Below, piece after piece: positions 7,538-58,725 of a stretch of DNA of 64,000 nucleotides (the stretch's first letter is position 1; each line of letters opens with the position of its first letter). The stretch lies in the NCBI RefSeq assembly GCF_007859945.1, contig NZ_SJPQ01000002.1:474279-538278 (forward strand), written 5' to 3'. The DNA is from Pseudobythopirellula maris (lineage in GTDB: Bacteria; Planctomycetota; Planctomycetia; Pirellulales; Lacipirellulaceae). The notes under the pieces are model-generated. The model had not been told where the DNA came from and ran no database searches. It saw only the letters and a list, made by a program, of their open reading frames with translations. A program made the position numbers and the translations under genes.

Positions 7538-8830
7538 ATGCCCCAAGCCCTCACTCTCCGTCGATTGTTGCTCGCCACGCTCGTTTGCTCCGCCGCGGCG
7601 GACCTGCGCGCCGACGAGCCCGCCCCGCAGGATGAGCAGGAGTACCTGCGGCTCTACGGCCTGTTTGCCGAAGCGCTCACCGAGGTCGAACTCAACTACG
7701 TCGAGCCGGTCGACCGGCGGCGGCTGGTCGAGGCCGCGATACGCGGCATGGTCGGCGAACTCGACAGGCACAGCCGGTACCTCACCGGGCGTGAGTTCGA
7801 GAAGGCCCGCGACCGCAACGCCCCGCAACGCGACCCCCTCGGGCTGCTGCTGGGGATCGACCCGGTTGGCTGGATCGTGGCGGTGGGTGTGGAGCCCGGT
7901 TCGGCGGCCGAACGCGCCGGCCTCAGGCCGGGGGACCGCGTGGTCTCGATCGGCGGCCGCCCGATCGAAGACGGCGAGCTCACCACGGCTGAGGAACTGA
8001 TCTCGGCCAAGCCGCAAGTGAGCGTGGTATTGCAATCGCCCGATGGCGCAGTGCGGCGAACCCGCATCGAGGCGATCCGATCCCCCCGCACCACCGTGCA
8101 CGGCTTCGCCACGGACGAAGGGGATGGGCCCGCTTGGATGCTGCCGCAGAGCGAGATCGGCTACGCCTGGCTGAGCGCGTTCGGGGCGGCGACGGCGGCC
8201 GACCTGCGTGTGGCGCTCGACGACGCCACGCGGCGTGACGCCCAAGGGTTCATCCTTGACCTGCGCGACAACGCGGGCGGGCTGCTCGAGGGGGCGGTCG
8301 ACGTTTGCGACCTGTTTCTCTCCGAAGGCGAGATCGTCTCGGTCGAGGGTCGCGACGACCGTCGCCGTGTCTGGAAGGCGAGTGCGGAGCCCAACGACGT
8401 TTCGACGCCGCTCGTCGTGCTGGTGAATCGCTACAGCGCGAGCGCCAGCGAAGTGACCTCGGGCTGCCTGCAAGACCGCGGCCGGGCGACGCTCGTTGGC
8501 GAGCGGACCTGGGGCAAGGCGAGCGTGCAAACGATCATCGCACTCGACGGCGGCGAGGCGGCCCTGAAGCTGACCACGGCCGCCTACCGCCGCCCCAGCG
8601 GCCGTTCGATCGACCGCCCACCGAGCGCCAGGCCCACCGACAGCTGGGGCGTCGAGCCCGGGGCCGACGGCCTGGCGGGAGTCGACGACGCCACGCGTCG
8701 CCGGCTGTTCGAAGCCCGCGCCGCGCGGACCCCCCTGCCGGTGGCGGACGACCCACAAATCGCTGCGGCCGTCGCGCTGCTCACCGCCCCCGCAAAGAAC
8801 GCGGCCACGAACGAAGCCCCTTCGCCATGA
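7538..8830 (+). CDS. ctpA: S41 family C-terminal processing protease
   Basis: A serine protease of the CtpA/Prc type, probably exported: the N-terminus has a signal peptide ending near LRADEP. A helical N-terminal segment is followed by a PDZ domain at about residues 98-182 (VEPGSAAERAGLRPGDRVVS) and the S41 catalytic domain. The nucleophile is Ser302 in NRYSASASEVTSG and the base is Lys327 in GERTWGKASVQ; the 25-residue spacing equals that of E. coli Prc. The stop overlaps the tsaD start by four bases (ATGA), suggesting coupled translation. The last 60 residues are low-complexity and unassigned. Confidence 0.87.
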   Translation: MPQALTLRRLLLATLVCSAAADLRADEPAPQDEQEYLRLYGLFAEALTEVELNYVEPVDRRRLVEAAIRGMVGELDRHSRYLTGREFEKARDRNAPQRDPLGLLLGIDPVGWIVAVGVEPGSAAERAGLRPGDRVVSIGGRPIEDGELTTAEELISAKPQVSVVLQSPDGAVRRTRIEAIRSPRTTVHGFATDEGDGPAWMLPQSEIGYAWLSAFGAATAADLRVALDDATRRDAQGFILDLRDNAGGLLEGAVDVCDLFLSEGEIVSVEGRDDRRRVWKASAEPNDVSTPLVVLVNRYSASASEVTSGCLQDRGRATLVGERTWGKASVQTIIALDGGEAALKLTTAAYRRPSGRSIDRPPSARPTDSWGVEPGADGLAGVDDATRRRLFEARAARTPLPVADDPQIAAAVALLTAPAKNAATNEAPSP

Positions 8831-9864
8831 CCCTCATCCTCACGATCGAATCGACCTGTGACGAAACCGCCGCCGCGGTGGTCAACGAAAAGCTCGAAGC
8901 GCTCGGATCGGTCGTCGCCTCGCAAGACGAACTGCACCAGCGGTTCGGCGGCGTCGTGCCGGAGATCGCCTCGCGGGCCCACGTCGAGCGGATCTTGCCG
9001 GTCATCGACGAGACGCTCCAGCGGGCCGGGGTCAGACTGGCCGACCTCGACGCCATCGCGGTGGCCAACATGCCGGGGCTCTCCGGTTCGCTGCTGGTCG
9101 GGCTGAGCGCGGCCAAGGGGCTGTGCGTCGCGACGGGGCTGCCGCTGATCGCGATCAATCACCTGCAAGCGCACGTGTACGCCTGCAAGATCGCCAGCGG
9201 CGAGGAGGTGTTTCCTTGCGTCGGGCTGATCGCCAGCGGCGGGCACTCGAATCTCTACCGCTGCGACGGGCCGACCGACTTCACGCCGCTGGGCGGCACG
9301 ATCGACGACGCCGCCGGCGAGGCGTTCGACAAGGTCGCCAGCTTGCTCGGACTGCCCTACCCCGGCGGGCCGTCGGTGTCGCGCGCCGCCGAGCGTGGCG
9401 ATCCGAAGAAGATCCGCTTCCCGCGTCCGCTGCTCAATGACGACTCGCGGCTCGCGTTTAGCTTCAGCGGCCTGAAAACGGCGGTCCGCTACCGACTGAT
9501 CGGCCCCGGCAAGCTCCAGGACTCGGAAGCGTCCCCGCCCAGCGAGCAGGAGATCGCCGATATCGCGGCGGGCTTCCAGGAGGCGGTCGTCGATTGCCTC
9601 GTGGGCAAAGCGGAGCTCGCCCTCAAGCAGAGCGGCTACCGCACGCTCTGCGTCGGCGGCGGCGTGGCGGCCAACGGCCGGCTGCGCGAGCGGCTCGAGC
9701 AATCGGCGGCCGAGCACGGCCACCGCCTGTTCATCCCGCCGATGTCGCTATGCACCGATAACGCCGTGATGGGCGCCATCGCCGTTGAACGCTTTAAGGC
9801 TGGGAAGTTCGAATCGCTCGAGCTCGATGTCTTCCCGGGGCAGGAACGCGTGGCGGCTAGCTAG
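8827..9864 (+). CDS. tsaD: tRNA N6-adenosine threonylcarbamoyltransferase
   Basis: TsaD transfers the threonylcarbamoyl group to A37 of ANN-reading tRNAs, with TsaB and TsaE, in the cytoplasm. The 345-residue length is normal. Visible family features: the N-terminal LTIESTCDETAAAVV, metal ligands His112 and His116 in NHLQAHVYA, IASGGHSNLY, FSFSGLKTAV, GGGVAANGRLRE and the final CTDNAVM Asp. The ATG overlaps the protease stop by four bases. The stop codon TAG (9862-9864) is also the first three bases of a 157-bp mobile element, which appears to have inserted into the original stop codon. Confidence 0.95.
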   Translation: MTLILTIESTCDETAAAVVNEKLEALGSVVASQDELHQRFGGVVPEIASRAHVERILPVIDETLQRAGVRLADLDAIAVANMPGLSGSLLVGLSAAKGLCVATGLPLIAINHLQAHVYACKIASGEEVFPCVGLIASGGHSNLYRCDGPTDFTPLGGTIDDAAGEAFDKVASLLGLPYPGGPSVSRAAERGDPKKIRFPRPLLNDDSRLAFSFSGLKTAVRYRLIGPGKLQDSEASPPSEQEIADIAAGFQEAVVDCLVGKAELALKQSGYRTLCVGGGVAANGRLRERLEQSAAEHGHRLFIPPMSLCTDNAVMGAIAVERFKAGKFESLELDVFPGQERVAAS

Positions 9865-10018
9865 AGCGGTATTCGAATTGGTGTGGACGAGCGGGGAAGC
9901 GATTGGCGGCGTGGCGAGGAAGCCGAAGCAGGCAATGCGGTGCATTGTCGATGCAGGCTGACGAAGCCATGACGCCGATCGCGAGCCGAGCGTCTACACC
10001 AATGAGCAAACCGCTCTA
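9862..10018. mobile_element. 157-bp MITE-like element, copy 1
   Basis: The element begins TAGAGCGGTATTCGAATTGG and ends CAATGAGCAAACCGCTCTA; the two ends form a 23-base terminal inverted repeat with 19 matches. TA stands at both outer ends, fitting a TA target duplication of the IS630/Tc1-mariner type. It is identical over its length to copy 2 (48026-48182, inverted) and differs from copy 3 (58521-58677) at one base. It has no gene. Removing it leaves AGC-TAA, an intact stop codon for tsaD. Confidence 0.85.
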
Positions 10019-10030
10019 ACACGCTTGCGT

Positions 10031-10117
10031 GGCGAGCCGTTCGCGTCAGCGACCGGAGTTGCTTGCGCGCCGCAGAGTGCTCCACGCCGCTCCGGTCGCT
10101 GACGCGAACGGCTCGCC
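10031..10117. repeat. perfect 28-bp inverted repeat (long hairpin)
   Basis: The left arm 10031-10058 (starting GGCGAGCCGTTCGCGTCAGC) and right arm 10090-10117 are perfect complements around a 31-base loop. The right arm ends on the first base of the ogt stop codon. Related single arms occur at 1177 and 2406 and a degenerate pair at 30609-30694. No T-run follows. Confidence 0.8.
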
Positions 10118-10659
10118 TAGAACAGTCGCGCGCCCTCGTGCTCGAGCAATTGCTCCTTGCGGCGCAGCCCGCCGGTGTAGCCCCCCAGGCCGCCGTCGGT
10201 GGCGATCACGCGGTGGCACGGCGTGATGATCGAGAGCGGGTTCTTCCCGTTCGCCGAACCAACGGCCCGCGAAGCCTTCGGCTGATCGATCGCCTCGGCG
10301 AGTTGGCGGTAACTGATCGTCCGGCCGTAAGGGATCGCCATCAAGGCGCGCCACACCCGGCGTTGAAACGCCGTGCCGACGCCACAAGATTCCTCGAGCG
10401 GCCCGAGCGGCAGGTCGAACGCGGTGCGCTGGCCGGCGAAATACTCGCCGAGCTGGTCGGACGTGCGGCGTGTGACGGCGTTGCCCGCCGTCGTCTCCGC
10501 GGCGGCCGTCACGACGGCTTGGTCCTGGTCGGCGTACTTGAGCCGCAGCAACCAGGCGTCGCTCGCCACGGCGACCAGCAGCCCCAGCGGAGTCGGGATC
10601 GGCTGGGCGGCGGTCGGCCGGGCGACGGGCGTTTCGGTCGGTGGGGGAAGGATCGCCAT
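10117..10659 (-). CDS. ogt: methylated-DNA--protein-cysteine methyltransferase
   Basis: Repairs O6-alkylguanine by transferring the alkyl group to its own cysteine. The active-site block PCHRVIA is present, preceded by GSANGKNPLSII and IPYGRTISYRQLAEAI, and followed by GGYTGGLRRKEQLL. I use the ATG at 10659, which gives 180 residues, a normal length; the open frame continues upstream without homology. A TAGAAT sits seven bases before this ATG. The gene has the same orientation as pfkA upstream but is separated by 56 bases that contain this element, so it may have its own promoter. Confidence 0.92.
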   Translation of the reverse strand: MAILPPPTETPVARPTAAQPIPTPLGLLVAVASDAWLLRLKYADQDQAVVTAAAETTAGNAVTRRTSDQLGEYFAGQRTAFDLPLGPLEESCGVGTAFQRRVWRALMAIPYGRTISYRQLAEAIDQPKASRAVGSANGKNPLSIITPCHRVIATDGGLGGYTGGLRRKEQLLEHEGARLF

Positions 10660-45925: not shown

Positions 45926-48028
45926 ATGCCCAACCGCCTCGCCAACGAGTCGTCGCCCTACCTGCTCCAACACCAGAACAACCCGGTCGATTGGTTCCCC
46001 TGGGGCGATGAGGCGCTCAAGAAGGCCCGCGACGAGAACAAGCCGATCTTCTTGTCGATCGGCTACTCGGCGTGCCACTGGTGCCACGTGATGGAGCACG
46101 AAAGCTTCGAGAACGAGAAGATCGCCGCCTACATCAACGAGCACTTCGTGCCGGTGAAAGTCGACCGCGAGGAGCGTCCCGACCTCGACCAGATCTATAT
46201 GAACGCCGTGCAAACGCTCACCGGGCGCGGTGGTTGGCCGATGAGCGTGTTTCTGACGCCCGACCAGAAGCCGTTCTACGGCGGCACCTACTGGCCCCCC
46301 ACTGCCGGGCGCGGCATGCCGGGTTTCGACCAGGTGCTCACCGCGGTGAACGACGCCTGGACCAAACGCCACGAGGAGGTGCTCGGCACGGCCGACCAGC
46401 TGACCGCGCGGCTGGACGACATCGCCCAGTCGGCCGGCGGCGGCGACGGCCCGCCGCTCACACACGCCCTCTTGGAGGGCGCCGTCAGGCAACTCGAGCA
46501 GGAGTACGACCCCGAGCACGGCGGCTTCGGCCCGGCGCCTAAGTTCCCCGCTTCGATGGACATGGCTTTGCTGCTGCGGATGCACGCGCACACGAGCCGT
46601 CCGGCGCTCGTCGACATGGTCCATCACACGCTCAATCAGATGGCGAACGGCGGCATCTACGACCACCTCGGCGGCGGCTTCGCCCGCTACAGCGTCGACG
46701 AGCGTTGGCTCGTGCCGCACTTCGAGAAGATGCTTTATGACAACGCGTTGCTGGCGGGCGTGCTCGTCGATTCCTACCTCGCCACCGGCGACGAGACCCA
46801 CGCCCGGGTCGCCCGCGAGACGCTCGACTACACGTTGCGCGGCATGACCGCCCCGGCGGGCGGGTTCTACTCGACCGAAGACGCCGACAGCGCGCCGCAC
46901 GACGATCCCAACGGCCACAAGGAAGAGGGTCTCTTCTACAGCTGGAAGCCCGCTGAGATCCGAGCGATCCTCGGCGAGGAAGCGGCCGACCGCTTCTGCC
47001 GCGTCTACGACGTGACGCCGCTAGGCAACTTCGAGGGCCGCAGCATCCTCAACCTGCCGAAGCCGATCGCCTTGTGCGCTGAAGAGTTCGGCGTGCCGGC
47101 CGGCGAGCTGGAGAAGGAACTCGCCGCTTCCCGTGCAAAACTGTTCGACGCCCGTGAGAAACGCCCCCGGCCGGGGCTCGACGACAAGGTGCTCACCGCC
47201 TGGAATGGCCTCATGATCGAAGCGATGGCCCGGGCCGGCGCCGCGTTCGGCGAGCCGCGGTACGTCGACGCCGCCGGCAAGGCGGCCGACTTCATCCTCA
47301 CCGAGCTGCGTACAGACGACGGCCGCTTGCTCCACTCCTGGCGCGGCGGATCGGCGAAGCTCGACGCCTACCTCGACGACTACACGGCGATGGCCGACGC
47401 GCTCGTGACGCTCTACGAAGTGACCGGCGACGAGCAGCGAATCGATCAGGCGGCCGGGCTGCTCGACACGGTGCTTGCCGACTTCGCCGACCCCGACGCC
47501 GGCGGGTTCTATTACACCGCCACGGGGCACGAGACGCTCATCACCCGTAACAAGGAGCTCACCGACAACGCCACGCCGTGCGGCAACTCGCTGGCTGCCT
47601 GCGCGCTGATGCGTCTCGGCCAGCTCACCGGCGAGGCGCGCTATCTCGACGCCGCCCACCGCACGCTCGAGGTGTCGTCGCTGCTGATGCAGCGGGCGCC
47701 GCGGGCGATGGGCAACATGCTCGCCGCGCTCGACCGTCAGCTGGGGCCAAGCCGCGAGCTGGTGCTCGTGGGCGGGGGCGACGACGCGAAGAAGATCGCC
47801 GGCGAGATACGGCGTCGCTACCTGCCGCGCTGCGTGCTCGCCATGCGAACGGGCGAAGAATACCGCTCACCGCTGCTTGCGGGCGCCTTCGAGGGCAAAG
47901 AGGCGATCGGCGGCGAGCCGACGCTCTACGTCTGCGAGAACCACGCCTGCCAGGCGCCGGTCGCGGGCGCCGAGGCGATCCGCCAAACACTCAGCACGTT
48001 GTCCCCACCCCCTGGTGGGGAGGGTTAG
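45926..48028 (+). CDS. thioredoxin domain-containing protein, YyaL/SPATA20 family
   Basis: The ATG at 45926 starts directly with the family signature [20 protein letters not shown]. The N-terminal DUF255 thioredoxin fold has CxxC at Cys50/Cys53 ([16 protein letters not shown]), followed by [12 protein letters not shown] and YWPP. The rest is an alpha/alpha barrel like that of glycoside hydrolases and N-acylglucosamine epimerases ([38 protein letters not shown]). The 700-residue length is normal. The catalytic role is not known. The last residues (SPPPGGEG) look like a read-through of a GC hairpin; the stop TAG is also the left end of a 157-bp element. TAGTAT at 45867-45872 may be its -10 box. 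Confidence 0.9.
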
Positions 48029-48182
48029 AGCGGTTTGCTCATTGGTGTAGACGCTCGGCTCGCGATCGGCGTCATGGCTTCGTCAGCCTGCATCGACAAT
48101 GCACCGCATTGCCTGCTTCGGCTTCCTCGCCACGCCGCCAATCGCTTCCCCGCTCGTCCACACCAATTCGAATACCGCTCTA
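48026..48182. mobile_element. 157-bp MITE-like element, copy 2 (inverted)
   Basis: Exact inverted copy of the element at 9862-10018, with its first TAG serving as the stop codon of the thioredoxin-domain gene. Removing the element and one TA leaves GGT-TAG, so the original gene also ended in a stop at this site. No gene inside. Confidence 0.85.
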
Positions 48183-58486: not shown

Positions 58487-58725
58487 GTGGGAGGGGTCTC
58501 TGACCCCGATAACGCGCTCTTAGAGCGGTATTCGAATTGGTGTGGACGAGCGGGGAAGCGATTGGCGGCGTGGCGAGGAAGCCGAAGCAGGCAATGCGGT
58601 GCATTGTCGATGCAGGCTGACGAAGCCATGACGCCGATCGCGAGCCGAGCGTCTACACCTATGAGCAAACCGCTCTAGCCTTATGCGGCTCACACACCGC
58701 TATCGGCGTCAGAGACGCCTCCCAC
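58487..58725. repeat. long hairpin split by a MITE insertion
   Basis: Left arm 58487-58513 (starting GTGGGAGGGGTCTCTGACCC) and right arm 58699-58725 pair at 24 of 27 positions. The 157-bp element copy 3 lies in what was the loop of about 28 bases. The hairpin is therefore older than the insertion. Confidence 0.75.
58521..58677. mobile_element. 157-bp MITE-like element, copy 3
   Basis: Identical to copy 1 (9862-10018) except for one base near the right end (CACCTATGAG for CACCAATGAG). TA at both outer ends. It is intergenic, between the GlcG-like gene and the Y-family polymerase gene, inside an older hairpin. Confidence 0.85.

Follow-up and report, generated by a model that had tools for sequence, protein, structure and literature searches.

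TA termini and long stem-loops are familiar features of bacterial MITEs (PMC2229807). RUP of Streptococcus pneumoniae, linked with IS630-Spn1, is about 100-160 bp long and gene-free, has short terminal repeats and TA ends, forms a hairpin, and occurs in roughly 100 copies that are presumed to be mobilised in trans (PMC2229807). ERIC and Correia (NEMIS) elements, of 127-155 bp, likewise have TA termini, long stem-loop transcripts and a largely intergenic location (PMC2229807), and bcr1 of the Bacillus cereus group is also counted among bacterial MITEs (PMC3733652). The ends of GTAG-tagged REPs often provide a TAG stop to flanking ORFs (PMC3733652), so a mobile palindrome that supplies stops is nothing new. 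Among insertion sequences, the IS427 group (IS1248, ISPpa2 and others) consists of elements of 830-865 bp that mostly make 2-bp duplications (PMC3281130), and YTAR is a known target-duplication motif for IS5 (PMC10359306).

The 157-bp element described here, from Pseudobythopirellula maris (Lacipirellulaceae, Pirellulales; genome of 5.07 Mb), is a non-autonomous transposon of the MITE kind: it is short and non-coding, with terminal inverted repeats, a TA duplication and dispersed near-identical copies. Unlike RUP, it has a YTAR target, ends like those of IS5/IS427 elements, and a core conserved across the phylum; the combination of a fixed apical core with arms and ends that diverge also sets its family apart from ERIC and Correia elements as these are described. 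The bcr1 element, of about 155 bp and with a conserved RNA structure, belongs by its description to another phylum and another target. GTAG-tagged REPs differ in being 20-40 bp long, associated with RAYT, and without terminal repeats with TA duplication. The local IS427-like copies begin GAGC in YTAR, although IS427-group elements carry a transposase, and the apical core was not found in the loci from these genomes (see below).

Copies in the window and in the genome

The window is the whole stretch of DNA analysed, 64,000 nucleotides of contig NZ_SJPQ01000002.1 (positions 474,279 to 538,278). A preliminary description had reported three 157-bp copies, identical or one base apart, and all were found where it placed them (Table 1): by comparison of the window copies, copies 1 and 2 are identical and copy 3 differs from them by 1 base. 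Both ends of each copy read TAGAGCGGT inwards, giving 6 matches in the window against 0.26 expected. Gene calls and Pfam matches bear out the reading that the element's TAG is the stop codon of tsaD and of the YyaL-type gene, and re-derivation of the excised sequences, leaving one TA, gave the TAA (tsaD) and TAG (YyaL-type) stops that had been claimed. We agree also that the window holds no transposase matching the 157-bp element. The terminal inverted repeats of about 23 bases were described too small, although the terminal match is real: all 157 bases fold into a single hairpin, at -95.9 kcal/mol on the plus strand (z -11.8) and at -70.1 kcal/mol on the opposite strand.

Table 1. Element copies, their parts and the adjoining genes in the window
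Feature	Position	Strand	Remark
MITE copy 1, 157 bp	9862..10018	+	first TAG = tsaD stop codon
MITE copy 2, 157 bp, inverted	48026..48182	-	outer TAG (48026-48028 on +) = stop codon of YyaL-type gene
MITE copy 3, 157 bp, one base different	58521..58677	+	divergent intergenic region; stop overlap absent
Conserved apical core of copy 1, CGAAGCAGGC-N13-GTCGATGCAGG	9924..9957	+	(nearly) invariant across hairpin family
Conserved apical core of copy 2	48087..48120	-	
Conserved apical core of copy 3	58583..58616	+	
Y + TA, left half of YTAR target, copy 1 (C-TA ... TA-A)	9861..9863	+	
TA + R, right half of duplicated YTAR target, copy 1	10017..10019	+	
tsaD, stop from MITE copy 1	8827..9864	+	Pfam TsaD PF00814, E 9.5e-92
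YyaL/Thioredox_DsbH-type gene, stop from MITE copy 2	45926..48028	+	PF03190, E 4.6e-79

A core-match search detected 85 copies genome-wide, on contigs C1-C4 and C6; 64 of the genome's copies have perfect 9-bp TAGAGCGGT ends at both sides. Among the aligned near-complete copies of the genome the mean pairwise identity is 97.2%, with 25 identical pairs, which speaks for recent amplification and supports the recent movement proposed from the near-identity of the window copies. No curated Rfam family matches the element at the six loci scanned. A pair of TAGAGCGGT ends 1776 bp apart (C1:283038-284813) was considered as an autonomous copy and rejected: it combines a truncated MITE with a chance match and contains no transposase.

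A separate hairpin whose 29-bp arms are nearly perfect (window 10031-10118, -76.9 kcal/mol) lies directly after MITE copy 1, between tsaD and a convergent methylguanine-methyltransferase gene; arms related to it occur also at about 2407 and 30608 in the window.

Target site

A YTAR target flanks 76 of the 79 own-genome copies with intact TA ends (CTAG 25, CTAA 23, TTAG 19, TTAA 9; the other three ATAG), where YTAR makes up only about 15% of the TAs of the window. The same motif was found at 63 of 69 insertions in other genomes. The TA duplication that had been proposed is shown by paralogous empty sites in the same genome. The copy at C2:900031 interrupts another small repeat, and a single TA stands at the junction in the repeat's other copies, which gave five hits, two of them one place seen in overlapping loci. 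A single TA when empty and a TA at both ends when filled mean a 2-bp target duplication.

A second small repeat, about 93 bp long (TAGTGCGAATCGCACGGATGCGTAGCG...GTAGTGCGATCTA) and with MITE-like TA ends, occurs in the genome at L007, L063, L078, L079, L090 and L104; three copies of this repeat carry the 157-bp element inside them or at their edge.

Stop codons and insertion context

Genes were called with a codon-usage caller trained on the window. None of the 85 copies lies inside a called gene, and about 20 of them overlap an upstream stop codon, two at both ends. Stop overlap was compared with that of unoccupied noncoding YTAR sites, the background being taken from the window and the copy flanks, not the entire genome: it occurs at 19/74 insertions against 43/518 such sites in P. 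maris (p 4.6e-5) and at 15/29 against 68/285 in MB_PLM_2 (p 0.003), an enrichment of 3-4x over background in both genomes. The suggestion that stop overlap is more frequent than random thus holds against a YTAR null in two genomes, with the qualification that the enrichment lies mostly at tight convergent gene pairs. Once conditioned on the intergenic region hit, stop overlap in P. maris is 19 against 15 expected (p 0.025).

The arithmetic of the site explains how stops survive. With A or G following the target TA, any in-frame hit falls on an existing TAA or TAG, and because the target is YTAR no tyrosine codon is hit in frame. The earlier statement, that landing in TAA, TAG or TAx recreates a stop every time, is therefore right about the rebuilding and too loose about TAx, as YTAR gives TAA and TAG only. 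Where one YTAR serves two convergent genes, both stops are rebuilt, since the motif forces TAA or TAG and the ends supply TAG. Such sites, at which a single YTAR provides both stops, account for 10 of 120 insertions in several genomes and for none of 803 background sites; the genes concerned are mostly long with good coding scores, and three shorter ones are weak (scores 11, 17 and 20).

Convergent regions are favoured overall (combined OR 5.4, p 1e-15), as are stop sites within convergent regions (OR 3.2, p 0.003). Together with the double-stop sites, these two excesses are what would favour a transposition machinery actively directed to stops or to the ends of convergent genes, with supercoiling or transcription termination as possible guides. 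We nevertheless think this unlikely: only surviving insertions are visible, and the lack of copies in called genes indicates selection that is evidently strong, and sufficient; any TAA or TAG stop after a pyrimidine is already a YTAR target; and divergent and long intergenic regions carry copies too. Selection against insertion elsewhere can explain the stop excess without any targeting of stops, survivors being concentrated at tight convergent stops because insertion there costs nothing.

Source of mobility

The preliminary description looked to an IS630/Tc1-type transposase. Such a Tc1/mariner-like source, as argued for pneumococcal RUP, would share with RUP and IS630-Spn1 the 2-bp TA duplication and the TA termini (PMC2229807), but three observations make it very improbable here. 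First, the IS630 transposase domain DDE_3 (PF13358) has no match in the whole P. maris genome, in a profile search that covered DDE_3, DUF4096 and DDE_Tnp_1. Second, the strict pyrimidine/purine rule around the TA fits IS5 (PMC10359306). Third, IS427-like elements of the same genomes start TAGAGC in YTAR sites, so that target and ends alike point away from IS630.

IS427-like transposase genes (DUF4096) were found in P. maris and in five of the seven relatives searched, and it is several of these genes that are flanked by the TAGAGC-starting ends in YTAR sites. P. maris itself has L116, an IS427-like copy of 851 bp with two ORFs, and L257 (C1:994722-995279), an internally deleted IS427-like copy with ends TAGAGCGTATCTCA and target T-TA-G. 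In several relatives 14-16 of 18 positions match between MITE ends and IS427 ends; in P. maris the MITE ends share TAGAGCG with L257 and match at 10-11 of 18 positions overall, and beyond TAGAGCG their agreement with local IS427 ends is no higher than that of shuffled ends (p 0.4). No autonomous IS427 copy with ends identical to TAGAGCGGT was found in the P. maris genome: GAGCGGT ends are present at none of its four DUF4096 and four DDE_Tnp_1 places. The apical core was not found inside the 23 IS427-like loci of these genomes, apart from one weak chance match (L114).

From target, duplication and end type we infer IS427-type mobilisation: judged by these sequence features, an IS5-family transposase of the IS427 group probably moved the element, although a transposase of another family may have done so.

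At roughly 556 bp and in a YTAR site, L257 has the look of a possible intermediate between IS and MITE.

A conserved hairpin family

Among 196 relatives searched, nine had weak similarity to the central part of the element. Most of these matches belong to elements 156-167 bp long, which have TAGAGC termini and fold over their whole length into a hairpin but differ in their arms; the matches in G172 and G084 look like chance. The hairpin tip, CGAAGCAGRC ... GTCGATGCAGG, is nearly invariant across the family. Across 20 diverse members, both sides vary in 36 of the 48 pairs. Their covariation score of 0.497 compares with 0.162 for shuffles and with no more than 0.11 for slid partners. The same strand always folds better (81/81 own elements and 36/36 others, and 20/20 with DNA parameters), a preference that owes part to the shared core. 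On pairs predicted from both strands, the G-U versus A-C asymmetry (22 against 11, p 0.08) is only suggestive.

With E of at most 1e-4, a covariance model detected the core in 31 of 392 Planctomycetota genomes (about 8%), although some of the weakest hits are doubtful. Outside the phylum, whole hairpins with the core were found in bins labelled Omnitrophica (E 8e-19), Verrucomicrobia (1e-11) and Chlamydiae (3e-9), where contamination is possible because the sources are metagenome bins. The core motif was absent from IMG/VR viral contigs.

Two further sets of loci may be recorded. L138, L155 and L227 have the same core with other ends, as whole hairpins in bins labelled Verrucomicrobia, Chlamydiae and Omnitrophica. 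L272 and L274 are core variants with the CGAAGCAGG and CGATGCAGG sides of the tip swapped, which suggests that the two tip halves may be interchangeable.

Since the bulged tip and the pairing of the arms are kept while the sequences of the arms change, we propose a constraint on the folded strand. Palindrome correction in replication may contribute to the pairing and covariation, but it does not account for the fixed bulges. The constraint might come from recognition during transposition, or from an effect at the RNA level through which copies become tolerable.

One alternative is that the hairpin has been domesticated, kept at the 3' ends of genes because it forms mRNA ends in both directions or insulates convergent genes from one another. 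A very stable hairpin adjoining stop codons, the excess between convergent genes, the uniform strand preference and the pairing kept by compensatory change would all suit this, and an influence of MITE hairpins on mRNA stability is documented for other bacteria (PMC2229807). The element shows no orientation bias relative to the reading gene, however (54 versus 46, p 0.48), an argument against any effect on the upstream mRNA that depends on the strand, and it has no terminal U-run of the kind typical of intrinsic terminators; we regard domestication as rather unlikely.

A REP-like element, moved as a single-stranded hairpin by a RAYT (Y1/HUH) transposase, would also present a strand-specific hairpin with fixed bulges, and GTAG-tagged REPs likewise give flanking ORFs their TAG stops (PMC3733652). 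Against this, our element is several times longer than REPs (157 bp versus 20-40 bp) and has perfect terminal repeats and a 2-bp duplication in YTAR. To our knowledge, single-strand HUH transposition would not be expected to involve such repeats or to duplicate 2 bp of the target, and we give the RAYT route hardly any credence.

Discussion

We consider it likely that an IS427-moved MITE, inserting at YTAR with TA duplication, rebuilding stops, sifted by selection and constrained in its folded strand, is the explanation of these observations as a whole. In this mechanism an IS5-family transposase of the IS427 group would act in trans on the GAGC... ends and insert the element into YTAR, duplicating the TA. 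When the site is a TAA or TAG stop after a pyrimidine, the upstream protein would be unchanged, because each end reads TAG inwards and A or G follows the target TA; when the YTAR is common to two convergent genes, both stops would be rebuilt at once. Selection would then clear copies from genes and regulatory spacers, leaving survivors between convergent genes and on stops. The phylum-wide retention of the tip (CGAAGCAGGC ... GTCGATGCAGG, with its fixed bulges) and of the pairing suggests that the folded single strand, as RNA or as single-stranded DNA, would itself be acted on.

More tentatively, the conserved strand-specific tip could be a functional module that a transposase or host factor binds, with arms and IS5-type ends exchanged around it; the family would then be one ancient parasite riding different transposases and specialised on convergent stops. 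We hold this as a possibility, on balance doubtful.

Bacterial MITEs are usually limited to a genus or family, and their ends alone suffice for movement; it is unusual for a MITE to keep its apical core and pairing as its arms and ends diverge. A literature search that covered few subscription journals found no published description of this repeat family, and the phylum-wide conserved core with covariation, the linkage to YTAR and IS5, and the double-stop insertions appear to be new. With the hairpin tip and its pairing preserved across the Planctomycetota, the question of what reads the folded form of a MITE becomes testable. The combination of a YTAR target with TAG ends gives a simple and general reason why a transposon can hit even overlapping stops free of cost, a rule that should apply to any IS5/IS427 element with G-starting ends.
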